A DNA stretch of 64,000 nucleotides from Micromonospora violae (GTDB lineage Bacteria; Actinomycetota; Actinomycetes; Mycobacteriales; Micromonosporaceae): the NCBI RefSeq assembly GCF_004217135.1, contig NZ_SHKK01000001.1:6696001-6760000 (forward strand), given 5' to 3'. A program made the translations under genes and the position numbers. The notes beneath the pieces were generated by a model. The model ran no database searches and was not told the origin of the DNA. It was given only the letters and a program-made list of their open reading frames with translations. This document shows, one piece after another, positions 8,755 through 19,668 of this stretch (within the stretch, counting starts at the first letter, position 1; each line of letters starts with the position of its first letter).

Positions 8755-9345
8755 ATGCAGGGAGAGGGCCAGGCGATCGGCGGACGAGCGATGGAGTCGA
8801 TGACCGGACGGCTGCTGGTCGCGACTCCGGCGCTCAAGGACCCCAACTTCGACCGTACGGTGGTGCTCCTGGTCGCCCACGAGCCGGGCGGCGCGCTCGG
8901 CGTGGTGCTGAACCGGGCCACCGAGGTGCCGGTCGCCGAGGTGCTCGGTGACTGGAGCGACCTGGCCCGCCATCCGGCGGTGCTCTTCGAGGGTGGTCCG
9001 GTGCAACCCGACTCGGCCATCTGCCTCGCCCGGATGCGGCACCCGATGCGCCGGCTGAAGGGCTTCCACCAGGTGTCCGGGGCGGTCGGCACGATCGACC
9101 TCTCGGTGGACCCGGAGCGGCTGCGGGAGAGCATCGGGGGCATCCGGGTCTTCGCCGGGTACTCCGGCTGGGGCAGCGGCCAGTTGGAGCAGGAGATCGC
9201 CGACGGGTCCTGGTTCGTGCTGGACGGGCTGCCCGGGGACGCCTTCGTCGACCGGCCCGACGATCTCTGGCCGATGGTGCTGCGCCGGCAGGGCGGGATG
9301 ATGGCCGCCGTCGCGCACTTCCCGCCGGACGTGGCGCTCAACTGA
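8755..9345 (+). CDS. yqgE: YqgE/AlgH family protein (UPF0301)
   Basis: About 196 residues. The family has a conserved fold but no settled biochemical function; in Pseudomonas it is named for a role in alginate regulation. Conserved features seen: GRLLVATPALKDPNFDRTVVLLVAHEPGGALGVVLNR, VLFEGGPVQPD, FAGYSGWGSGQLEQEI and WFVLDG. The start is uncertain: ATG at 8755, 8791 or 8800 are all possible, none with a strong Shine-Dalgarno. The first is chosen, and family similarity begins near residue 16. Confidence 0.9.
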   Translation: MQGEGQAIGGRAMESMTGRLLVATPALKDPNFDRTVVLLVAHEPGGALGVVLNRATEVPVAEVLGDWSDLARHPAVLFEGGPVQPDSAICLARMRHPMRRLKGFHQVSGAVGTIDLSVDPERLRESIGGIRVFAGYSGWGSGQLEQEIADGSWFVLDGLPGDAFVDRPDDLWPMVLRRQGGMMAAVAHFPPDVALN

Positions 9346-9372
9346 GGCCGGCTCGGCAGGGGACCCCCGCGA

Positions 9373-9402
9373 GATGACCATGCGAGCCGGTCTGTGTATA
9401 GT
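9373..9402 (+). promoter_or_regulatory. Promoter of tRNA-Ala
   Basis: A TATAGT -10 box at 9397-9402 with ATGACC as a partial -35 match at 9373-9378 (18-bp spacing), 33 bp before the tRNA. Confidence 0.6.
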
Positions 9403-9435
9403 TTCCCAGTGCCCGGGCGACCGGGACAACAGCAA

Positions 9436-9508
9436 GGGGCCGTGGCGCAGCTGGTAGCGCACCACACTGGCAGTGTGGGGGTCAGGGGTTCGAGTCCCCT
9501 CGGCTCCA
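9436..9508 (+). tRNA. tRNA-Ala (anticodon GGC)
   Basis: Acceptor stem GGGGCCG (9436-9442) pairs with CGGCTCC (9501-9507) and contains the G3-U70 alanine determinant. The D arm GCGCAGCTGGTAGCGC, anticodon stem CCACA/TGTGG with loop CTGGCAG (anticodon GGC), and T arm AGGGGTTCGAGTCCCCT are all formed. CCA is not encoded. Confidence 0.96.
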
Positions 9509-9515
9509 CCCTTGA

Positions 9516-9553
9516 GAAACGCCCTGGTCGGGATAACCCGGCCAGGGCGTTTC
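9516..9553 (+). terminator. Terminator after tRNA-Ala, probably bidirectional
   Basis: 17-bp stem (9516-9532 with 9537-9553, one G-T pair) and an ATAA loop, beginning 8 bp after the tRNA and ending GTTTCGCTT. The YciI gene on the other strand ends 19 bp beyond and may use the same hairpin. Confidence 0.8.
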
Positions 9554-9571
9554 GCTTGCTACCGGCAGGTG

Positions 9572-9832
9572 CTACCGGACGATCGGGGACCACTCCCGCT
9601 GGCTGGTGATCGTCACCCCGGGGGTGCGGTAGTAGGGGTCGGCCGCGACGATCTCGGCGAACGCCTCGGCGTCCGGGACGTCGAAGATCAGCAGTGCGCC
9701 GGAGTCGTCGGCGAACGGCCCGGCCATGACCAGCCGGCCCTCCTGGTGCAGGGCCTGGAGACGCTCCCGGTGCGCCGGTCGGGCGGCGAGCCGGTCGGGT
9801 TCGTCGCCGAAGGACAGCTCCAAGATGAACAC
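9572..9832 (-). CDS. YciI family protein
   Basis: 86 residues, a compact ferredoxin-like fold. The family shows His/Asp residues resembling an active site but has no agreed function; here HRERLQALHQEGRLVMAGPFADDSGALLIFDV and ADPYYRTPGVTITSQREW match it well. The start is GTG at 9832 with a strong GAGGAGGAA Shine-Dalgarno 3-4 nt upstream. A TAGGGT box in the 90-bp gap behind it suggests its own promoter, so it is probably not part of the upstream operon. Confidence 0.82.
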   Translation of the reverse strand: MFILELSFGDEPDRLAARPAHRERLQALHQEGRLVMAGPFADDSGALLIFDVPDAEAFAEIVAADPYYRTPGVTITSQREWSPIVR

Positions 9833-9922
9833 CGGTTCCTCCTCATCGGGGCGATCTCTCGAAGCACCCTAGTCGATCCGGTGCGCCACCGTCGTCTGGT
9901 CACGGGCACCCGTCAGTGGTGG

Positions 9923-11227
9923 TCAGGGATCGACGATGACGTCGATCGCCGCGCTCACCTGCCGCTCCAGGTCGTCGAGGTCGTCGAGGGTCGGGGCGTC
10001 GATCAGGAACGTCACCGCACGGTCACCGGACTCGCGCAGCTCACCGAGGCGCGTGCCGCGTTCCTTGAGCACGATGACGTGCCGCAGGGCGGGCGGTTCG
10101 TCGGCCTCGCCCGGCGCGATCACCGGCCACGGTTGCCCCTCCGGCACCCACTGCGGCTCCACGCCCGGCCAGCGCAGCTTCACGTCCTGCAACACTCCGG
10201 TCGGCTGGGGGAGGTAGACCTGGCGGGCGTACCGCCGGGGCGGGGGGTGCGCCGCCGGCTCGTCGAGCGCCACCTCCATGATCGTCTGCTCCAGCGCGCG
10301 ACCGGTCGCCAGGTGGTAGAGCGGCATGATGCCGTCGCCGGGCGTACGGGCCGCCACCTCCATCAGGACCGGCCGACCGTCCCGGTCGAGGCGGAGTTCG
10401 GTGTGGACGATGCCGGCGACCAGACCGAGCCGGCCCACGATGTCGCGGTTGGCGGCGAGCAGGGTCTCGTGTTCCGTGCCGGGAGGCGCCGGCACGGTGT
10501 GGGCCATCTCGACGAACCAGTCGGAGCCGTCCTCGGTGGTCCGTTTCTGGGTCGCCGACTCGAAGACGATCCGACCGTGTTGGACGACCGCCTCCACCGA
10601 ATACTCCGCGCCGGTGACGTACTCCTCGACCAGCAGGGTCTCCGCTTGCGGGTACTCGGTGAGCAGGTCGGGCAGGGCCTCGGGGTCGTGCACCGCCCGG
10701 ACCCCGGAACTCGACCTCCGGCCCGAGGGCTTCAGCACCGCCGGAAACCGCACCGAACTCACGTCGAGCCCGGCGCGCCCCTGCGGTGGGACGACGACCA
10801 GCCGGGGACTCCACTGCGGCAGGTAGAACCGTTGCAGGTACTTGTTGCGACACACCCGCGCCGCGCGGACCCCCGGCCCGGGTAGGCCGAGCGCATCCGC
10901 CACGATCCCGGTCTGCTCGACGAGCATCTCGCCCGCGGCGTAGACCCCGACGATGTCGTACTCCTGCTGCCAGCGCTGGACGTGGGCGACCACACCAGAG
11001 GTGAAACTCCCCTCGATGCCGACCTCGCCGGTGACGAAGGCCGCGTCCGCGAGGTACGTCCCGGGACCCTCGCCCCGGGCCATGGCGGCCGTGGTGTCGG
11101 CCCGCCACTGTTCCGAGGTGATCAGCAGGATCCGCAGCCCTCGACCGGCGAGGTCGGCCAGGAAGCCCCAGTTGCGGGCGATGACCCGGTAGCCGCCGAG
11201 CAACAGGAAGGCGCGGGCCTCACTCAT
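9923..11227 (-). CDS. ATP-grasp ligase, last gene of the five-gene cluster
   Basis: 434 residues. ATP-grasp enzymes join a carboxylate to an amine (or thiol) through an acyl-phosphate. An N-terminal pre-ATP-grasp domain (about 1-110) begins ARAFLLLGGYRVIARN; the ATP-grasp core follows, with FPAVLKPSGRRSSSGV, TLLVEEYVTGAEYSVEAVV as nucleotide-binding elements and HTELRLDRDGRPVLMEVAARTPGDG supplying the Mg ligands; a C-terminal domain (about 310-434) completes it. It resembles L-amino-acid/dipeptide ligases of the carnosine-synthase type rather than PurD/PurK. Its ATG lies inside the end of the sulfotransferase gene (8-bp overlap), so the two are translationally coupled. The substrate is unknown. 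Confidence 0.82.
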   Translation of the reverse strand: MSEARAFLLLGGYRVIARNWGFLADLAGRGLRILLITSEQWRADTTAAMARGEGPGTYLADAAFVTGEVGIEGSFTSGVVAHVQRWQQEYDIVGVYAAGEMLVEQTGIVADALGLPGPGVRAARVCRNKYLQRFYLPQWSPRLVVVPPQGRAGLDVSSVRFPAVLKPSGRRSSSGVRAVHDPEALPDLLTEYPQAETLLVEEYVTGAEYSVEAVVQHGRIVFESATQKRTTEDGSDWFVEMAHTVPAPPGTEHETLLAANRDIVGRLGLVAGIVHTELRLDRDGRPVLMEVAARTPGDGIMPLYHLATGRALEQTIMEVALDEPAAHPPPRRYARQVYLPQPTGVLQDVKLRWPGVEPQWVPEGQPWPVIAPGEADEPPALRHVIVLKERGTRLGELRESGDRAVTFLIDAPTLDDLDDLERQVSAAIDVIVDP

Positions 11228-12185
11228 AGCCGTACTGCTCCAGGATGTCGCCGAACAGTTCGGTGAAACGGGCCTCGTTCCGCTTGGTGAACCGCTCCCG
11301 CCAGGTGCCCGTGGTGCCCCGGAAGAAGCTCCAGGAGCCCTGGTCGTAGACCTTGCCGGCGACCTCCTCGGCGTCGGCGTTGGACCCGACGTGGTGCAGC
11401 AACCGGTCCACGGCCTCGATCTGGCGTTGCCGGGACCCGCCGCCGCGCTCTCCCACGAGATCCTCGTAGCTGACCTTGCACACGTCGGGGTGCCGCAGCA
11501 GCCACAGCCCTCTCTCGAACTGGTCGCGGCCGAGGAAGGACGTGTCCCGCATCGCGTAGTCGAGCTTCTCCTCCCAGGTCGGCAGGGAGGTCAGGATGCG
11601 GTGAAAGATGTCGAACTCGTAGAAGTTGCCGTACCCCTCGCGGGTGCGCCCCTCCAGGAAGTTGACCATGGACACCAGGGCGTCCCGGGGGTCGCGGTAG
11701 TTGTAGATCAGCGGCGGTGTGGCGGTCTCCACCCACTCGGCGAAGAAGGACCCGTCCACCTTGCTGATGTCCAGCTCATGGAAGATCCAGCAGAGCCCGG
11801 CCGGGGTGTCCGCGAACCGGGAGTACGGCAGGTGCGGGTTGGTGATCACCGAGTCGGCGAAGTCGAACCGGGTCTGCCCGTACCGGTTGACGACGTGCTG
11901 GCCCAGCCGGCGTTGCCAATGCCAGCCCAGCGCGGACCAGGCCTCCTGGGTGCGGAGCAGGTACTCCTCCGTGCCCTCCAGTTCCAGCAGCTCGTCGTAG
12001 TCGGACTTCGACAGGGTGAGCGCGGCGATCTGACGCCGCTGCGCGTCGGTGAACTCTGGCGTGTTGCGGGGGGTCGGCCGGGGCACCCCGGCCATCTTGT
12101 ACCCCAGATTGGTCATCAGACCCTGCATGAGGTGAGTGCCGGTCTTCTGCAGCGAGATCACCATGGCACGAGGGGCCAGCGGCAT
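11220..12185 (-). CDS. Sulfotransferase-family protein
   Basis: 321 residues. Predicted to transfer sulfate from PAPS to a hydroxyl or amine. The 5'-phosphosulfate loop is PRAMVISLQKTGTHLMQGLM (consensus PKSGTTW-like, with Lys and Thr retained), and the 3'-phosphate site is YNYRDPRDALVSMVNFLEG. The region between, with HELDISKVDGSF, fits the fold. The ATG at 12185 is chosen because it has a GGGAG Shine-Dalgarno and leads straight into the P-loop strand; the longer in-frame extension overlaps the preceding gene. No signal peptide, so a cytosolic biosynthetic role is more likely than action on the envelope. It is 49 bp after the acyltransferase gene. Confidence 0.82.
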   Translation of the reverse strand: MPLAPRAMVISLQKTGTHLMQGLMTNLGYKMAGVPRPTPRNTPEFTDAQRRQIAALTLSKSDYDELLELEGTEEYLLRTQEAWSALGWHWQRRLGQHVVNRYGQTRFDFADSVITNPHLPYSRFADTPAGLCWIFHELDISKVDGSFFAEWVETATPPLIYNYRDPRDALVSMVNFLEGRTREGYGNFYEFDIFHRILTSLPTWEEKLDYAMRDTSFLGRDQFERGLWLLRHPDVCKVSYEDLVGERGGGSRQRQIEAVDRLLHHVGSNADAEEVAGKVYDQGSWSFFRGTTGTWRERFTKRNEARFTELFGDILEQYGYE

Positions 12186-12234
12186 GTCGGTCTCCCGGTG
12201 GGTCGTGCGTCGGATGCGACGCGGAACGAGGGGA

Positions 12235-13455
12235 TCAGCGGACGTAGGCGGCCAGGTGGCCGGTGGTGCGCTCGTCGAGGAATCGAAGGAGCCGGGCGAA
12301 CGACTCCCGCCGGCGCTCATCGGGTGTCCACAGCCAGAACTCCCGTTTGGCGACCCGGGCGCCCCGGCGGAACTTCGGCGCGAACGCCTCGAACCCCAGG
12401 CGGTACCGGGGTACGCCGGCCCGGATGCACGACTCGACCGGCTGACCGAACACCAGATGGTGGTAGGCGACGCTGGTACCCGTGACGTCGTAGTCGCTGC
12501 CGTAGCCGAGCGTGCAGCAGCCGTGCCGGCCGTACATCTGCACGGTGCACGCGAGGACCTCGGCGTCGGAACGGCCCGCCACGGCCACCCGGATGGCGTC
12601 GGGGAGCACCGCCGCCAGGTACGCGCGGGCCGCCCGCAGTTGCGGCCGGTTCGGTGCCGCGCCGTTGCGCTCGCCGGTACGCGCCTCCAGGTCCACGATC
12701 CGGTCGACGTGATCGGCGAGGGGCACCTCGCGGACCTGGAGCCCGGCCCGGGTCACCTCCCGCTCGGCCAGCCGGTAGTTGCGGCGGATCTCGGCGTTCT
12801 GCCCGTCCAGGAACGCCTGGTAGGTGGGGTAGCCGGCCAGGTGCAACGCGGACGCAGCGGTGACCGAACCCCGGACGAAGCCGGCGGTTTCCAGGAGTTC
12901 GGGCAGCAGTTCGTCGTCGGCGGCCACGTACGGGAGGACCACCGCTCCCGCTCGCCCCTGCCGGACCAACTCCTGAAGGGCCGCCACGACCTCCCGGCCG
13001 GCCTGCCGCCGGCGGGCGATGTCGACGTCGGCGGCGGTGAACAGCGGGCTGCGGTCGTAGGTGCGGACGACGAGGGGCTCTCCGAGGGTGGTGGTGAGCC
13101 ACTCCGCGAGATCGCCCGACTCCGGTGCGTCCGAGCCGAGCGCGCCGAGCAGGGCCCGGTGCTCGGCGCGGATCCGGGTCGCGTCGTCGTCCGGGGTGAG
13201 TCGGAGGAACTGCTCCTCGGTGAGGAGCTTCCACGGGTGGCTGAACAGGCCCGTCCCGGCCACGGCGGTGACCGCGTGGATCGCGGCCACCGGCCCCCGG
13301 TCGTCGTCAGCGGTGACCAGCAACGCGTCGCCGGGCTCCAGTCGTTCGCGAAAGCGCAGGTAACCGTGGGCCGCGTCGGGCTCGGCGTCGGCGGCCAGCC
13401 GGGCCCAGGTCTCCTCGTCGACGGCGGAGATGCCGCCGGTCACGTCAGTCGCCAT
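12235..13455 (-). CDS. GNAT/FemAB-like N-acyltransferase (COG3146-type)
   Basis: 406 residues. The second half carries the FemAB/GNAT-like pattern: ALHLAGYPTYQAFLDGQNAEIRRNYRLAEREVTRAGLQVREV, then VAVAGRSDAEVLACTVQMYGRHGCCTLGYGSDYDVTGTSVAYHHLVF and a Phe/Lys/Arg-rich end. Relatives are annotated as predicted N-acyltransferases or peptidogalycan biosynthesis proteins; they use acyl-CoA or aminoacyl donors to form amides. The acceptor and donor here are unknown. The ATG at 13455 overlaps the end of the MFS gene by 11 bp, showing coupling. The domain call is moderate; the operon position is certain. Confidence 0.7.
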   Translation of the reverse strand: MATDVTGGISAVDEETWARLAADAEPDAAHGYLRFRERLEPGDALLVTADDDRGPVAAIHAVTAVAGTGLFSHPWKLLTEEQFLRLTPDDDATRIRAEHRALLGALGSDAPESGDLAEWLTTTLGEPLVVRTYDRSPLFTAADVDIARRRQAGREVVAALQELVRQGRAGAVVLPYVAADDELLPELLETAGFVRGSVTAASALHLAGYPTYQAFLDGQNAEIRRNYRLAEREVTRAGLQVREVPLADHVDRIVDLEARTGERNGAAPNRPQLRAARAYLAAVLPDAIRVAVAGRSDAEVLACTVQMYGRHGCCTLGYGSDYDVTGTSVAYHHLVFGQPVESCIRAGVPRYRLGFEAFAPKFRRGARVAKREFWLWTPDERRRESFARLLRFLDERTTGHLAAYVR

Positions 13456-14770
13456 GCCGGATGGACCGTTCCTTCCGAGTCGTCGTGTCCGCGAGGGCCT
13501 GCACCTCGGCTATCTGGGCCGCCGTGCGCAGCGGGGAGGCGTACAGCAGCAGCGACGAGACGGTGAGCGAGACGGCCACCACCCAGACCGCCGTGGTCGC
13601 CCCGGCCAGGTCGGCCAACACCCCGCCGAGCAGTGCCCCGACCGGCAGCGAACCGAAGGCCGCGATGCGGTAGCTGGCGGTCACCGCGCCGAGCAGGACG
13701 GGAGGGGGGACCTGCTGCCGCACGGTGACCGCCAGGACGTTGTAGACCGCCAGCGCCGCCCCGTTGATCACGAAGCCCGCCCCGATCAGCACGGTCGCCG
13801 TGCCGGCCGCGGCGAGCCCGGGCACCAGCAGCAGCCCGAGCGCGGCGACCGTGATCGAGACGGTCAGCGCGCGTCCGAGGTGCAGTCGGGCCCCGATCCG
13901 CCCGGCGACGAGGGAACCGACCAGCGCCCCGACGCTGCCGAGCCCGATGACCAGGCCGATCAGGCCGCCGGAGAGCCCGAGGGTTCGCACGCCGTACACC
14001 AGGAAGACCGTCGCGAAGGCCTGCTCGTGCAGGTTGAAGAGGGCCGACTGTACGCACAGGTCCCGGATCGGTCGGCTCCGCCAGACGTAGGCCAGCCCGG
14101 CGCGGATCGTGGGCGCGTCGCCCCGGTCGGCCGCCGGACCCAGGGCGCGAGCCGGGAGGGCCGCCATCGCCATCGCCGCCGCGCAGAACAGCGCCCCGGT
14201 GACCACCGCGGCCCAGGAGGCGCCGGCGGACTGGACGATGAACCCGGCCGCCGCCGGCCCGGCCATCTGGGTCACCGAGGTGGTCGCCTGCAACAGGCCG
14301 TTGCCGGCCACCAGCCGGTCGCCGTCCAGCAGCCGGGGTGCGGTGACCTGGGACCCGATGTCGTGCAGCACCGCCGCCGAGCCGATGAGGAACGCGCCCA
14401 CCAGCAGTGCAGTGAAGACCAGGCGGTCGGTGGCGGCCAGGGCCCCGATGCCGAACAGCACGACGCCGCGCGCCGCGTTGCCGGTGACCAGGATCCAGCG
14501 CAACGAGGTACGGGCGGTCCAGGTGCCCACCAGCAGGGAGAACGCCAGCACCGGCACGAACTGGGCCGCGCCGACCAGCCCCACCTGGGTGCCGCTGCCG
14601 GCCAGCAACGTCACGACCAGCAGGGAGAGCCCGAAGGCGGTGATCTGGTGTGCCGACCGGGCGGCCAGGTCGCCCAGCCAGAGGGTACGGAAGGCCGGCT
14701 CCCGCAGCGGGGGGCGCGGTGGCGCGCCGACGTCCGTACCCTCTGGCAGGCGCCGGATGTCAGCTGACAC
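13445..14770 (-). CDS. MFS transporter of the carbamoyltransferase cluster
   Basis: 441 residues with about 12 hydrophobic helices beginning near residue 25 (FRTLWLGDLAARSAHQITAFGLSLLVVTLLAG) and ending near 405. The pattern matches the MFS_3/enterobactin-exporter-like (EntS-type) branch, usually drug or siderophore exporters. Gly- and Arg-rich loops between helices 2-3 are visible. Its ATG overlaps the carbamoyltransferase stop by 11 bp and its own stop lies inside the next gene, so it is made in step with the enzymes; export of the pathway product, with self-protection, is the likely role (inference). Confidence 0.85.
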   Translation of the reverse strand: MSADIRRLPEGTDVGAPPRPPLREPAFRTLWLGDLAARSAHQITAFGLSLLVVTLLAGSGTQVGLVGAAQFVPVLAFSLLVGTWTARTSLRWILVTGNAARGVVLFGIGALAATDRLVFTALLVGAFLIGSAAVLHDIGSQVTAPRLLDGDRLVAGNGLLQATTSVTQMAGPAAAGFIVQSAGASWAAVVTGALFCAAAMAMAALPARALGPAADRGDAPTIRAGLAYVWRSRPIRDLCVQSALFNLHEQAFATVFLVYGVRTLGLSGGLIGLVIGLGSVGALVGSLVAGRIGARLHLGRALTVSITVAALGLLLVPGLAAAGTATVLIGAGFVINGAALAVYNVLAVTVRQQVPPPVLLGAVTASYRIAAFGSLPVGALLGGVLADLAGATTAVWVVAVSLTVSSLLLYASPLRTAAQIAEVQALADTTTRKERSIRHGD

Positions 14771-16508
14771 CGGTGCCGGTGACGCTCGCTGACGCGTCCG
14801 ACGAGGTGACCCTGCGGTACAGCGCGTTCTCGCTCCAGATGAGGTCGACCTGGCCCCACTCCATCGCCGACACCACGTCGGGGAAGAAGCTGCGGCCGTT
14901 GTAGTTCGCGCTGGTGTTGCAGAGCACCGGGATGCCGCTCCACTTGTGGTACTCGCGCAGGACGGCCGCGAGCATCGGGTTGTCCTCGGCGCTGACCGTC
15001 TGCAACCGGGCCGTCCCGTCGAGGTGGATCGCCGCCGGGATCCGGTCCACCCAGTCGGGGCGTACCCGGTGGTCGAAGAGCATGTACGGGTCCGGGGTGC
15101 CCGGGTCGAAGACCGTCGGAGCCTGATCGGTCAGGCAGATCGGCGCGACCGGCCGGAAGCTCTCCCGACGCTTCATCCGGTTGAGTTCGTCCTTCATCGC
15201 CGGGTCCACCGCCGGGGCGAGGATGCTGCGCGCCCCGAGTGCGCGGGGGCCCAGCTCGGCGCGGCCGTGCAGGACCACCACCGGCTTCCCGGTGCGGTGC
15301 AGCAGCCGGGCCAGCTCCTCCGGTCGACATGGTGCCACCGTCCAGCCCGCCGGTACGTGTGAGTTGTGCACGAGGTCGGGGCCGGCGAAGACGTTCCACG
15401 AGATCGGCGTCAGGCGCTGCTCTCCGCTGATCAGGATGGCGCCGGTGCCGATGGCCGAACCGGAGTCGTCCGGGAAGGGGGGCACCCACATCTCCCGGAT
15501 GGCCTTGTGTGCCCGCATGGCGCTGTTCCACTTGATGTTCAGGGCGCAGCCGCCGGCGAAGCAGAGGTTCCAGGGGCCGTCGCCCTTCCAGGATTCGGCC
15601 TTGGCCACGAGCCGCTCGACGAGCAGCTCCTCGATGAACTCGTGCACGCTGGCGAGCACGTCGTCGTCGGAGACGCCCAGTTGGTCCGTGCGCCGACGGA
15701 CGTCCTCAAGATAGGCGTGCACGTAGGCGTGGGAGGGCTCGCCGGTGCTGCCGCAGCCGATGATCTCCTCCCGGTATTTGCGGACGGCCGGGCTGTCGGC
15801 CTCGAAGTGCTCGTGAAACAGCTCCCCGAGGACCTGCTTGATCGGTTCCCGGGCGGTGCCGAGGGCGATGTAGGCCATCAGCTTCCCGGCCACCGAGAGG
15901 TCGTCGACGTTGCGGGACAGCTTGTCGCGCCGGTACGGCCCGAAGTGCTGCGAGGCCATCGAGTAGAAGTGCCCGATCAGGGGAAAGACCTCGCCGCCGG
16001 GCTCGATGCGGCCGTCCTTGTCCACGGAGTAGAGCCGGGGGAAACACCCGCCGTCCCAGACCAGGACGAGGCTCGGCTCGCCCCGGCGGGCGAAGGGGCT
16101 GGTGCTGTACGCGGCCGCGAGGTGGCTCGCCACATGCACGTGACTGACGTACGGCACGGTGGCGTCGCCGATGGGCAACTCGCCCCGGTGGCCCGGCTGC
16201 GCCGGATTCGGCACCCGCTCGGTCTCCCGGTAGGGGGCCAGGTGAACGTCGACCGGGCTGCCGTTGTTGAGCCGGTGCGCCTGCCCGTGGATGGCGCCGT
16301 CCCAGCCGTCCAGTGCCCACTGGTCGACGTCGGAGATCTTGTAGCCGAAGTCGCCCAGGATCCGGGCGATCAGCGTGAGGTCGTCCACGTCGCTGTATCG
16401 GCGGTTGTTCTCCAGTTTCTGCGCCTCGACGTTGAACTCCAACACGTCGTCGTGGAAGAGGGCGACGCCTCCGCTCTGTGTGAGCTTTACTCCGCAGGTA
16501 ATACGCAT
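14760..16508 (-). CDS. O-carbamoyltransferase (NodU/CmcH/TobZ family), first gene of the cluster
   Basis: 582 residues, family length. These enzymes make carbamoyl-adenylate from carbamoyl phosphate and ATP and transfer the carbamoyl group to a hydroxyl of a natural product. The TsaD/Kae1-like domain carries the metal His pair in SHVHVASHLAAAYSTSPF and FAGGCALNIKWNSAM; the C-terminal domain has ELGPRALGARSIL, FRPVAPI and NTSANYNGRSFFP. The N-terminus (MRITCGVKLTQSGGVALF) departs from the usual GINxxHDAS pattern. The ATG at 16508 has a GGGGAGAGA Shine-Dalgarno and a TTGACT/TAGGAA promoter. It is the operon leader; the following gene overlaps by 11 bp. Confidence 0.9.
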   Translation of the reverse strand: MRITCGVKLTQSGGVALFHDDVLEFNVEAQKLENNRRYSDVDDLTLIARILGDFGYKISDVDQWALDGWDGAIHGQAHRLNNGSPVDVHLAPYRETERVPNPAQPGHRGELPIGDATVPYVSHVHVASHLAAAYSTSPFARRGEPSLVLVWDGGCFPRLYSVDKDGRIEPGGEVFPLIGHFYSMASQHFGPYRRDKLSRNVDDLSVAGKLMAYIALGTAREPIKQVLGELFHEHFEADSPAVRKYREEIIGCGSTGEPSHAYVHAYLEDVRRRTDQLGVSDDDVLASVHEFIEELLVERLVAKAESWKGDGPWNLCFAGGCALNIKWNSAMRAHKAIREMWVPPFPDDSGSAIGTGAILISGEQRLTPISWNVFAGPDLVHNSHVPAGWTVAPCRPEELARLLHRTGKPVVVLHGRAELGPRALGARSILAPAVDPAMKDELNRMKRRESFRPVAPICLTDQAPTVFDPGTPDPYMLFDHRVRPDWVDRIPAAIHLDGTARLQTVSAEDNPMLAAVLREYHKWSGIPVLCNTSANYNGRSFFPDVVSAMEWGQVDLIWSENALYRRVTSSDASASVTGTGVS

Positions 16509-16872
16509 AGCTGTCTCTCCCCGTTATCGGCGACCTCAAATTCCTATCGATGTTCCACCGGCAAGTCAACCCCTAGACCCATTGCCTAAGCCGATCGGCA
16601 ACCCTTGAGCTGCGCGAACATGAGTGACGCTGCTCGATGTTGTGCGTCACCTGCGTCAGGCCAGGAAGATGTCGGTGAGAGCCCTCTCCGAGATGCCGCA
16701 ATGCCTATGGGTCTAATAGGATTTAGATTTTCCGTCATCTGAAATTCGCGCGTCACGAGTTGGTAACGCCGCGTTGTCAGCTGACAGGGTTGGGGGCGTA
16801 CCGGATCACCCGGACGGCGTTCCAGTTGACGTATTAGCAGCTCAGCAGGGCTGCGATCGGCATGGGGGATCA
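16509..16872. other. 364-bp divergent regulatory region between the cluster and the 81-residue gene
   Basis: No gene is supported here. It holds the operon promoter (16541-16569), an AT-rich patch at about 16705-16755 that is unusual for this genome, and a perfect 12-bp dyad TGTCAGCTGACA at 16775-16786 that could be an operator. A TTGACG at about 16827 might be a -35 for the rightward gene, but no matching -10 was found. Confidence 0.5.
16541..16569 (-). promoter_or_regulatory. Promoter of the carbamoyltransferase operon
   Basis: On the minus strand, TTGACT (16569-16564) and TAGGAA (16546-16541) are separated by exactly 17 bp, a near-consensus housekeeping promoter and the strongest seen in the window. 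The 5' untranslated region would be about 25 nt. Confidence 0.7.
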
Positions 16873-17118
16873 ATGAGTGGCAATGAGGCCAGTCGGCGGC
16901 TATCTTCGACCAGGGGTCCGGCGCGGTCCGGCGGCCCTCCGGTCGACGAAGCGGATCTTGAGCGATGGATACGCGATATCCTGCAATCGACGCATCCACT
17001 CCGACTCGGCTCAGAATTGCGTCGAGCGGAACGCGCCGCGAGAGCCAGATTCTCTGACCCGACAATTGCGCAAGCGGTCCACCGCGCCGTCACCGCCACA
17101 ATGAACAGGCGTGATTGA
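16873..17118 (+). CDS. Small hypothetical protein facing the carbamoyltransferase cluster
   Basis: 81 residues, unrecognised. The N-terminal 30 are Ser/Gly/Arg-rich; the rest is predicted as two or three helices (DEADLERWIRDILQSTHPLRLGSELRRAERAARARF and DPTIAQAVHRAVTATMNRRD). No HTH, signal peptide or Cys residues. The ATG at 16873 has GGGGAT close upstream; a longer in-frame extension from 16774 would start inside the dyad and is less likely. Divergent from the cluster promoter, it could be a regulator or accessory protein, but nothing in the sequence shows that. Confidence 0.5.
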   Translation: MSGNEASRRLSSTRGPARSGGPPVDEADLERWIRDILQSTHPLRLGSELRRAERAARARFSDPTIAQAVHRAVTATMNRRD

Positions 17119-17168
17119 GCGCCCATCAGTAAGTTCACGACACCTGCTGGTTTCGGTCCGGAATGGTG

Positions 17169-17189
17169 TTGGCGAAAACATTGTTCGCC
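17169..17189. promoter_or_regulatory. Inverted repeat, possible operator or hairpin
   Basis: TGGCGAA (17169-17175) and TTCGCCA (17183-17189) form perfect 7-bp arms around 7 nt. It lies 50 bp after the 81-residue gene, with no T tract following. Confidence 0.35.
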
Positions 17190-17250
17190 AGGGCGACCTT
17201 TCCTTGTCCGGCGACCGGTGTCCGTGTCGTCCGGTCAGGGGCGTACGCAA

Positions 17251-17285
17251 AAACGCCCCGACCGGATGACCCGGTCAGGGCGTTG
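17251..17285 (-). terminator. Terminator of rpmJ2
   Basis: 14-bp stem (17252-17265 with 17271-17284, one mismatch). Read on the minus strand it is followed by TTTTTGCG, i.e. a terminator for the L36 gene, starting about 30 bp after its stop. Confidence 0.75.
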
Positions 17286-17312
17286 GTGACGATATGTCCG
17301 GTAAGGGCTACA

Positions 17313-17435
17313 TCAGCCCTGCCGGCTCTTCCACTGCGGGTTGGCGCGGTTCACCACGACCACCCGGCCGCGACGGCGGACCACCACCGAACCCGGCTTC
17401 TGCTTCAGTGCACGCAACGAGCTACGTACCTTCAT
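17313..17435 (-). CDS. rpmJ2: 50S ribosomal protein L36 paralogue without zinc ligands
   Basis: 40 residues starting [20 protein letters not shown] and ending NPQWKSRQG, a clear bL36. It has no Cys, whereas the primary L36 binds zinc through three Cys and a His; it is therefore the C-minus paralogue (YkgO-like) that in several bacteria replaces the zinc form under zinc starvation, often under Zur control. The ATG at 17435 has a GGAGG Shine-Dalgarno 5 nt upstream. I could not identify a convincing Zur box in the roughly 185 bp upstream. Confidence 0.93.
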
Positions 17436-17621
17436 CTCTGCCTCCTCGGTGCAAGCGGTTCCGAGTATCGAAACGCCGCACCCACCCGCCAGATTCCCGC
17501 GACCTGGGCGTACCGGTGGCGTCGGTGACCGACCTCGGCGGCCGGCAGTGCGAGGTCCGCAACCACCGGGCCGGGCGGCGTCGGATCTGGTGACCCGACC
17601 CGCCCGCGACCGGTGCGGTGC

Positions 17622-18611
17622 TCAGCTCAGCTGCTGCTCGATCTCGGCCAACTCGTCGGCGGTGAAGTCGAGGTTGTCGAGTGCGGCGATGTTCGTCTCC
17701 AACTGCTCGACGCTGCTCGCCCCGATGATCAGGCTGGTCATCCGTGGGTCGCGCAGCGCCCAGGCCAGCGCGAGCTGCGCCAGGGACTGGCCGCGCCGCT
17801 CCGCGATCGCGCCGAGCCCACGGATGGTGGACATCTTCTCCTCGCTGAGGTCGCTCTCGTTGAGGAAGACGCTGGTGCGGACCCGCGAGTCGGCCGGGAT
17901 GCCGCCCAGATAACGGTCGGTCAGCAGACCCTGGGCCAGCGGGCTGTACGCGATGCAGCCCGCACCGACCTGCTCCAGCGTGTCGAGCAGGCCGTCGGAC
18001 TCGGTCCAGCGGTTGAGCATCGAGTACGAGGGCTGGTTGATCAGCAGCGGCGTACCCAGGTCGCGCAGGATCGCGGCAGCCCGCGCGGTCTGCTCGGAGG
18101 TGTAGTTGGAGATGCCGACGTAGAGCGCCTTGCCGGAGCGGACGACGGCGTCCAACGCCCCCATCGTCTCCTCAAGCGGAGTGTCCGGGTCGAAGCGGTG
18201 CGAGTAGAAGATGTCGACGTAGTCCAGCCCCATCCGGCTCAGCGACTGGTCCAGCGACGAGATCAGGTACTTGCGCGAGCCCCACTCGCCGTACGGGCCG
18301 GGCCACATCAGATACCCGGCCTTGCTGGAGATGACCAGCTCGTCCCGGTACGGCTTCAGGTCGGTGGCGAGCATCCGACCGAAGTTCTCCTCCGCCGAGC
18401 CGGGCGGTGGGCCGTAGTTGTTGGCCAGGTCGAAGTGGGTGACCCCCAGGTCGAAGGCGCGCCGCACGATGTCGCGCTGCCGTTCGAACGGGCGGTCCGG
18501 ACCGAAGTTGTGCCACAGGCCGAGCGAGACGGCGGGCAGTCGCAGGCCACTGCGTCCGCTGCGCCGGTAGGTCATGGTGTCGTAGCGGTCATCCGCGGCG
18601 AGATAGGTCAC
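17622..18611 (-). CDS. Aldo/keto reductase (L-glyceraldehyde-3-phosphate reductase-like)
   Basis: 329 residues, TIM barrel, NADPH-dependent. The catalytic tetrad is visible: Asp and Tyr in FDLANNYG, Lys in VISSKAGY, His in DIFYSHRFD. The phrase LANNYGPPPGSAEENFG and the overall length match the YghZ/GprA branch, which reduces L-glyceraldehyde 3-phosphate and other aldehydes. The GTG at 18611 is chosen because a TAGGCT box (18624-18619) sits 7 nt before it; the ATG at 18617 would overlap that spacing. It is divergent from a second aldo/keto reductase 76 bp away. Confidence 0.88.
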   Translation of the reverse strand: MTYLAADDRYDTMTYRRSGRSGLRLPAVSLGLWHNFGPDRPFERQRDIVRRAFDLGVTHFDLANNYGPPPGSAEENFGRMLATDLKPYRDELVISSKAGYLMWPGPYGEWGSRKYLISSLDQSLSRMGLDYVDIFYSHRFDPDTPLEETMGALDAVVRSGKALYVGISNYTSEQTARAAAILRDLGTPLLINQPSYSMLNRWTESDGLLDTLEQVGAGCIAYSPLAQGLLTDRYLGGIPADSRVRTSVFLNESDLSEEKMSTIRGLGAIAERRGQSLAQLALAWALRDPRMTSLIIGASSVEQLETNIAALDNLDFTADELAEIEQQLS

Positions 18612-18687
18612 GATCATGAGCCTAGTGCGGGCGCAGCGTGGCGGGGATCGGGCGTGCGAACCGGGACATCGGGGTAGTTTCGACGCC

Positions 18688-19668
18688 ATGCGGTTCATTG
18701 CGCTCGACACCCCCAAACCGCTGTCCAAGATCGGGTTGGGCACCTGGCAGTTCGGTTCCCGGGAATGGGGGTACGGCCCGGACTTCGAGCGGCAGGCGGC
18801 GCAGATCGTCCGGCGGGCCGTCGAGCTGGGCGTGACGGTCTTCGACAGCGCGGAGGTCTACGGCTTCGGGCGCAGCGAACGCATCCTCGGCGCGGCCCTC
18901 GGCGACGACCGGCCGAAAGTGGTGGTCGCCAGCAAGATCCTGCCCGTGCTGCCGGTGGCCGCGGTGGTGCAGCAACGGGCGGTCGCCTCGGCGGCCCGGC
19001 TCGGCGTCACCCGCCTCGACCTCTACCAGGTGCACCAGCCCAACCCGCTGGTCGCCGACCACAGCACCATGCGTGGCATGCGGACCCTGCAGGACGTCGG
19101 GCTGGTCGACGAGGTGGGCGTGAGCAACTACGGGCTGCGCCGCTGGCAGGTCGCCGAAGCGGCGCTCGGCCGGCGGGTGCTCAGCAACCAGGTGCGCTAC
19201 AGCCTGCTGGACCGCGCACCCGAACGGGACCTGCTGCCGTACGCGCGGCAGGCCGGCCGGGTGGTCATCGCGTACAGCCCGCTCGCGCAGGGCTTCCTCT
19301 CCGGCCGCTACGACGCCGCGAACCCGCCGACCGGCGCGGTCCGGCGCGCCAACCCGCACTTCCTGCCGGAGAACCTCGAACGTGGCGCCCCGCTGATCGA
19401 CACCCTGCGCCAGGTCGCCGACGCCCACGACGCCACTCCCAGCCAGATCGCCCTGGCCTACCTGCTGCGCCACCCGAACGTGCTCGCCATCCCCGGGGCG
19501 TCCGGGGTCGAGCAGATGGAACGCAACGCCGCCGCGGCCGACATCGACCTCGCCGACGACGAGTACGCGGCGCTGGCCGAGGCCGCGAAACGCTTCCGCC
19601 CGATCACCGGACTCGCCGCGATGCCCGCGATGCTGCGCGCCCGGTTCGGCAACCCAACCGGAAAGTGA
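18688..19668 (+). CDS. Aldo/keto reductase
   Basis: 326 residues. NADP-binding barrel with the tetrad in FDSAEVYG (Asp, Tyr), VVASKIL (Lys) and LYQVHQPN (His), and the cofactor-phosphate segment IPGASGVEQMERNAAA. The substrate is not predictable. The ATG at 18688 lies 7 nt after TAGTTT (18675-18680), so a leaderless start is predicted and the 24-codon in-frame extension is rejected. The next gene starts inside its stop codon. Confidence 0.87.
   Translation: MRFIALDTPKPLSKIGLGTWQFGSREWGYGPDFERQAAQIVRRAVELGVTVFDSAEVYGFGRSERILGAALGDDRPKVVVASKILPVLPVAAVVQQRAVASAARLGVTRLDLYQVHQPNPLVADHSTMRGMRTLQDVGLVDEVGVSNYGLRRWQVAEAALGRRVLSNQVRYSLLDRAPERDLLPYARQAGRVVIAYSPLAQGFLSGRYDAANPPTGAVRRANPHFLPENLERGAPLIDTLRQVADAHDATPSQIALAYLLRHPNVLAIPGASGVEQMERNAAAADIDLADDEYAALAEAAKRFRPITGLAAMPAMLRARFGNPTGK

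Follow-up and report, generated by a model that had tools for sequence, protein, structure and literature searches.

A five-gene Micromonospora operon that may direct the assembly and export of a carbamoylated, sulfated amino-acid amide or small peptide

The operon and its conservation

Five genes, encoding a carbamoyltransferase, a major facilitator superfamily (MFS) exporter, a FemAB-like transferase, a sulfotransferase and an ATP-grasp ligase, lie close together in a 64,000-nucleotide stretch of Micromonospora violae DNA (assembly GCF_004217135.1, contig NZ_SHKK01000001.1, positions 6,696,001 to 6,760,000; hereafter the window). An earlier note on this stretch, made from the sequence alone, described them as a head-to-tail set on one strand behind a single promoter. 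All five open reading frames (ORFs) are found in that arrangement, running from 16508 to 9923 on the minus strand:

14760..16508, minus strand: carbamoyltransferase of the NodU kind (582 amino acids; PF02543 at 2.7e-60, PF16861 at 4.7e-46)
13445..14770, minus strand: MFS exporter (441 amino acids, GTG start; PF07690 at 8.7e-29, PF05977 at 2.4e-22)
12235..13455, minus strand: FemAB-like/GNAT transferase, candidate aminoacyl- or acyl-transferase (406 amino acids; PF04339 at 1.6e-6)
11220..12185, minus strand: sulfotransferase of the type dependent on 3'-phosphoadenosine-5'-phosphosulfate (PAPS) (321 amino acids; PF00685 at 28.5 bits against a cut-off of 22 bits)
9923..11227, minus strand: ATP-grasp ligase of the L-amino-acid-ligase type (434 amino acids; PF13535 at 3e-15)

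The junctions are likewise as claimed: three neighbouring pairs overlap (by 11, 11 and 8 bp), and the remaining pair is separated by 49 bp. The five enzyme families named in the earlier note were recovered by Pfam as Carbam_trans_N and Carbam_trans_C, MFS_1, FemAB_like, Sulfotransfer_1 and ATP-grasp_4, each above its curated cut-off, the FemAB_like match being marginal (27.9 bits against 27) and the sulfotransferase score having been obtained on a longer ORF of 366 amino acids. This longer ORF, which starts at 12320, was rejected as an over-extension, and the 321 amino acids from 12185 were kept. The five genes are not chance ORFs, because their third-codon GC content is 0.91–0.94, their order is the same in four other species, and their ratios of nonsynonymous to synonymous substitution (dN/dS) are 0.05–0.17. 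We infer that they are co-transcribed. The single promoter proposed ahead of them corresponds to one putative site, conserved in five species:

16541..16569, minus strand: conserved promoter-like site 5' of the carbamoyltransferase gene (TTGACT at 16569 and TAGGAA at 16546-16541, separated by 17 nt)

The arrangement TTGACTTGCC-N4-GAACATCGATAGGA stands upstream of the carbamoyltransferase gene in all five carrier species, with TAGGAC in place of TAGGAA in M. foliorum and M. saelicesensis. An automatic scan for consensus sigma-70 promoters did not report the putative site.

The gene set is syntenic across genomes. A scan of genome contigs with the FemAB-like protein gave matches at 93–94% identity in M. 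foliorum, M. alfalfae, M. arida and M. saelicesensis, and each of these species carries the same five genes in the same order. One flank holds AlgH and a benzoylformate-decarboxylase-like gene in all four, and the other holds a pair of aldo-keto reductase genes in three, the M. foliorum contig stopping short of the pair. The ATP-grasp gene at 95% identity or more is confined to five of 160 genomes of the genus (the window's own genome included), and the same five carry the sulfotransferase at no less than 97%. They are also the only five of 354 genomes of the family with the FemAB-like gene at 93% or above, and the same genomes carry the carbamoyltransferase at 98%, in searches that covered 84 of the 160 (37 + 47). 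Three of the four named carriers are described as plant isolates in the available text of PMC8990736 (M. alfalfae MED01 and M. foliorum PSH25) and PMC5765111 (M. saelicesensis DSM 44871), while M. arida LB32 is recorded as coming from Atacama desert soil.

Selection was assessed by the Nei–Gojobori method in comparisons of the window with three carriers (M. alfalfae, M. arida and M. saelicesensis; M. foliorum was left out). Values of dN/dS were 0.05–0.06 for the carbamoyltransferase and 0.06–0.07 for the sulfotransferase, similar to those of the neighbouring AlgH gene (0.04–0.08), and reached 0.12–0.16 for the MFS protein, 0.14–0.15 for the FemAB-like protein and 0.13–0.17 for the ATP-grasp ligase. 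The operon genes are under purifying selection in the three carriers compared.

The extent of the inserted segment can be read from a genome without the operon (G004), in which the stretches that align to window positions 9572-9849 and 17251-17411 are separated by 666 bp:

9850..17250, no strand: the full insertion as measured against the G004 site, about 7.4 kb (alignment to operon-free G004, locus L090)

This empty site bounds the operon at about 7.4 kb. The five genes are therefore not a piece of some larger cluster at this location, a possibility that the earlier note had raised against itself. Nor is there any polyketide synthase (PKS) or nonribosomal peptide synthetase (NRPS) among the ORFs of the insertion, as had been stated.

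The enzymes and their relatives

The carbamoyltransferase shares 49% identity over 570 columns with NodU of Rhizobium tropici CIAT 899. The motifs GGCALNIKWNSA, PPFPDDSGSAIG, GRAELGPRALG, NRMKRRE..RPVAPICL and LCNTSAN are common to both proteins, exactly or nearly, so that the motifs of both domains are kept; the protein was also aligned to TobZ, a novobiocin-type carbamoyltransferase and another carbamoyltransferase chain. Against the NodU equivalog model NF041651 it scores 655.6 bits, under the 1000-bit cut-off. On these comparisons it is kin of NodU and is not classed as NodU proper. The setting of the R. tropici gene differs, with nodABC, nodS, nodI, an ABC permease gene and a sulfotransferase gene nearby. 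Relatives at 60–73% identity span several actinomycete genera (among the best 120 of 4220 matches). Those at 66–73% were considered as a candidate streptothricin carbamoyltransferase group. Class III carbamoyltransferases work through carbamoyl-AMP, according to the available text of PMC9633730, and a NodU-like domain is described in part of a preprint (PMC13174530) as able to carbamoylate a lysine amine, which leaves room for an acceptor other than a hydroxyl. Elsewhere in the genus, one contig (C13 of genome G167; L145, L146 and L147) carries three near full-length NodU-type carbamoyltransferases, at 44–46% identity, within 41 kb.

In the sulfotransferase, the motifs SxxKxGTHL and YRDPRD, which we take to be the 5' and 3' PAPS-binding motifs, are invariant in seven aligned sequences, the window's included. 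Its relatives are scattered. Those at 68% identity adjoin a carbamoyltransferase-like gene in two other Micromonospora genomes (G018 and G015), those at 46–48% lie near lysine/ornithine-monooxygenase genes (G143 and G083), and those at 36–37% lie in class I lanthipeptide loci of Streptomyces globosus and Streptomyces sp. Mg1. On Streptomyces plasmids, a sulfotransferase gene sits directly between a class I lanthipeptide precursor gene and LanC/LanB genes (L094:13932-14966 and L095:13995-14972), and sulfated lanthipeptides are a possible product of these loci.

The ATP-grasp protein is assigned to the L-amino-acid-ligase type on profile evidence. A profile of seven sequences, the window's included, matches the BL00235 L-amino acid ligase (3vot) at 1.2e-35 and BacD at 1.6e-25, and the single protein as query still matches 3vot at 2e-16. 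The likeness to BL00235 and BacD has a limit in that the LAL_C2 domain of the operon ligase falls under its cut-off. The MFS protein matches the TIGR00900 and EntS models, under their cut-offs.

For the FemAB-like protein, a search of about 5.8 billion proteins, with the 8000 best candidates scored, gave four relatives: a 31-member cluster at 94% identity, two at 70–72%, and a frame-shifted fusion to the sulfotransferase, which, given its closeness, probably represents the same operon. In eight aligned sequences, the window's included, K361-x(3)-G-A (K361, G365-A366) is invariant. K361 might be catalytic by analogy with FemX Lys305 and DhpH Lys329 (PMC12945691, in the part available). The GNAT-fold enzymes VlmA, DhpH and PacB, described there as using aminoacyl-tRNA, and with them Orf11, bear only a distant family likeness (FemAB_like/GNAT) to the operon protein, as far as the accessible text describes these FemABX-type proteins.

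Among the weaker matches to the FemAB-like protein, one locus (L138:4890-17391) combines ATP-grasp-like genes and a FemAB-like protein with an aromatic amino acid lyase, a cupin, a SidA-like monooxygenase (named by eye) and a MetRS-like protein. It may belong to a hydrazine-type (N–N bond) pathway.

A proposed pathway and competing explanations

We lean slightly towards reading the operon as an NRPS-independent pathway to a short carbamoylated and sulfated amino-acid amide or small peptide, which is exported. The ATP-grasp ligase would couple one amino acid to another, or to an amine, by way of an acyl-phosphate, and the FemAB-like protein would add a further aminoacyl group, perhaps from an aminoacyl-tRNA. 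The NodU-type carbamoyltransferase would form carbamoyl-AMP from carbamoyl phosphate and ATP and then move the carbamoyl group to a hydroxyl (or an amine), the sulfotransferase would add sulfate from PAPS, and the MFS protein would export the product. We infer these substrates, the order of the steps, the use of tRNA, the product and whatever role it has. No enzyme for making precursors was recognised within the insertion, so these would be supplied by primary metabolism. It is the L-amino-acid-ligase type of the ATP-grasp protein that favours a short peptide or amino-acid amide as the product.

Comparable gene combinations recur in other loci. An MFS gene directly adjoins the ATP-grasp relative in six of nine loci examined: S. 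lavendulae pSA3239 and Streptomyces NBC_01276 (near-copies of one cluster), S. clavuligerus, G108, G168 and G143; the nine exclude Embleya NBC_00896, where the record is unannotated, and many weaker matches. In G143 the ATP-grasp, MFS and sulfotransferase genes all fall within 5 kb. In addition, GNAT/FemAB-like, ATP-grasp-like and MFS genes occur together in three independent loci (L134/L135, which are one locus in two species, L136 and L138), from a set of seven (L134–L140) in which L134, L135 and L136 had been chosen for an ATP-grasp match already known nearby.

That choice is itself one of a number of points that weigh against a peptide or amide pathway. In the other four of these seven loci, an ATP-grasp-like gene lies less than 4 kb away in L138 and about 7.5 kb away in L137 and L139, with none in L140. 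In L136 and L138 the ATP-grasp matches fall under the Pfam cut-offs, and in L134 and L136 the GNAT is matched by Acetyltransf_6 and not by FemAB_like. In the remaining three of the nine ATP-grasp loci (S. canus, NBC_01343 and G083), the MFS gene is some 4–7 kb distant. Moreover, at E 0.001, 142 of the 160 genomes of the genus have an ATP-grasp match, and matches so common make weak co-occurrence poor evidence. Doubt attaches to the enzymes as well. LAL_C2 scores 19.9 bits against a cut-off of 29.4 (residues 374-432 of 434), and the FemAB-like protein found no match among Protein Data Bank (PDB) sequences at E 1, the solved FemX included. Matches to it elsewhere are weak, at 23–37% identity (19 places outside the operon, with genomic context examined for seven); it occurs in two of 396 phylum genomes, its own included, and has no match among plasmid records. 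Context fixes no substrate for the sulfotransferase, because its relatives sit in such different loci. The carbamoyltransferase acceptor could, by analogy with NodU, be a sugar, the nearest relatives being 66–73% identical.

Within the proposed pathway, there is a slim chance that the carbamoyltransferase and sulfotransferase form a two-step unit, in which the sulfotransferase sulfates the newly made carbamate, giving an N-sulfocarbamate on a dipeptide made by the ligase. We know of no such chemotype from actinomycetes.

The strongest competitor, though still unlikely, takes the possibility of a sugar acceptor further: the carbamoyltransferase–sulfotransferase pair would tailor a sugar-bearing product to which the ligase attaches an amino acid, yielding an aminoglycosyl peptide and not a plain peptide. 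The NodU kinship of the carbamoyltransferase would fit, as would G018 and G015, where a carbamoyltransferase-like gene adjoins the sulfotransferase gene in a region with, by eye, deoxysugar and halogenase genes. However, the insertion has no recognisable glycosyltransferase or sugar-nucleotide gene, and the carbamoyltransferase-like proteins of G018 and G015 (L060:7889-9565 and L061:7249-8916, both on the minus strand), near full length as they are, have lost the carbamoyltransferase motifs, GPRALG being replaced by GPGPVG and GGCALNIKWNSA being lost. Between these two genomes dN/dS is 0.34 for the carbamoyltransferase-like gene, 0.06 for the adjacent sulfotransferase gene and 0.25 for a halogenase-like control; the protein might be a non-catalytic partner of the sulfotransferase, or it may be decaying. 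In a carbamoyltransferase tree of 60 rows the G018 and G015 proteins stand on a branch of length 3.89, and their kinship to the window's enzyme is tentative.

Tailoring of the cell envelope or of an exopolysaccharide is a doubtful alternative. Here the carbamoyltransferase and sulfotransferase would add their groups to a sugar polymer or a glycolipid, peptidoglycan-type peptides would be modified by the FemAB-like protein, and the MFS protein would move a precursor. PF04339 is described as acting in peptidoglycan biosynthesis or recognition, and NodU, the closest characterised carbamoyltransferase compared, has an oligosaccharide as its substrate. Yet the gene set is patchy, stands at a variable site, brings its own exporter and includes an enzyme of the L-amino-acid-ligase type, and kin of the same enzymes are found in metabolite loci. 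A detoxification or self-resistance module, in which a toxic compound is modified and exported, is quite improbable: transferases and an MFS exporter at a variable site would suit it, but two ATP-dependent anabolic enzymes, the ligase and the carbamoyltransferase, would in our judgement be unusual there.

Nod-factor-like signalling in plant-associated Micromonospora, with the carbamoyltransferase as NodU, the sulfotransferase as NodH and the GNAT as NodA, is very improbable. It draws on the identity to NodU and on the plant origin of most named carriers, but the best segment shared by the sulfotransferase and R. tropici NodH spans only 19 residues (22 bits), the FemAB-like protein has no match to R. 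tropici NodA, the insertion holds nothing recognisable as a nodB- or nodC-like gene, one carrier (M. arida LB32) comes from desert soil, and the closer carbamoyltransferase relatives are spread over several actinomycete genera. Those comparisons, with the gene content, largely rule out a Nod-factor gene set (nodABC with a NodH-like sulfotransferase). Equally remote is a variant of the gvg-like (oxyvinylglycine-type) clusters, which are described with a NodU/CmcH-family carbamoyltransferase (PMC8064604) and, in a Pantoea agglomerans Eh318 variant, with MFS, ATP-grasp and sulfotransferase genes too (PMC4010436): membership is refuted by what the bounded insertion contains (the five genes plus a small ORF, with no SGNH hydrolase or aminotransferase), the core genes gvgA, gvgB, gvgC and gvgF, as given in the available text of PMC8064604, being absent apart from the carbamoyltransferase, and a search of plasmid records with the operon sulfotransferase at 1e-5 gave no match in Pantoea.

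The seven-gene Eh318 cluster is nevertheless, by its description in the available part of PMC4010436, the closest described gene set, sharing a NodU/CmcH-family carbamoyltransferase, an MFS protein, an ATP-grasp protein and a sulfotransferase in a compact cluster. It differs in having homologues of pnp1B and pnp1C and an aminotransferase gene, which the Micromonospora operon lacks, and that text makes no mention of a FemAB-like gene such as the operon has. The pSA3239 and S. clavuligerus plasmid loci resemble the operon in another way, with ATP-grasp proteins 55% and 42% identical to that of the operon and an adjacent MFS gene. The first, in contrast to the operon, also encodes a SidA/IucD/PvdA monooxygenase, a tRNA-ligase-like protein and an NRPS, the second has isochorismatase- and arginase-family genes, and neither has a carbamoyltransferase–sulfotransferase pair listed next to its ATP-grasp and MFS genes. 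Saxitoxin, whose tailoring steps in the accounts available include carbamoylation and sulfation, had been named in the earlier note as a partial parallel lacking its core enzymes here. None of those core enzymes is among the genes of the insertion, and membership in the saxitoxin pathway was rejected on gene content.

Each enzyme type is known, and the combination was not found described in the open-licence literature searched. The earlier statement that no characterised pathway with exactly this set is known stands within that literature; the Eh318 cluster is related and, in the available text of PMC4010436, uncharacterised. A search for the enzyme combination otherwise returned titles on saxitoxin and on dinoflagellate and cyanobacterial toxins. 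With no PKS or NRPS core, and as a very small set with known ends, the operon could be missed by cluster finders keyed to such cores. The same compactness (five genes and an orphan ORF in 7.4 kb) means that it could be transferred whole to a laboratory host. Since its carriers include legume-associated Micromonospora, a sulfated, carbamoylated secreted peptide could, speculatively, bear on interactions with plants or other microbes.

Edges of the insertion

The insertion ends at a YciI-like gene on one side and a ribosomal protein L36-like gene on the other, and a tRNA gene lies nearby:

17313..17435, minus strand: ribosomal protein L36-like gene, 40 residues (named by eye; the alignment at 17251-17411 covers part of it)
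9436..9510, plus strand: tRNA-Ala (GGC), near the insertion, at a likely hot spot
16873..17118, plus strand: divergent orphan ORF of 81 amino acids inside the insertion (dN/dS 0.12–0.20 against three species)

The YciI-like gene (9572-9832) was considered as a sixth member of the operon and rejected, as it is also present at this place in operon-free G004. The 81-amino-acid ORF shows purifying selection across four species (the window's and three others). It has no match in Pfam, and the search of about 5.8 billion proteins gave it a single weak relative (59% identity over 57% of its length); in M. foliorum its frame is shifted near the start. It may be a putative regulator.

No integrase was recognised in the roughly 7.4-kb insertion, and an Rfam scan of 9000-19000 gave nothing but the tRNA-Ala at gathering score. 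The content of the site varies: in G002, whose AlgH is 99% identical, it is occupied by other genes, including a FAD/NAD-type oxidoreductase and a response regulator. This variable site beside the tRNA-Ala gene is likely to be a hot spot. In G016, the 3' region of tRNA-Ala is present in a second, partial copy (L091:5311-5373) at a distance of about 4.4 kb, suggestive of a past integrative element.

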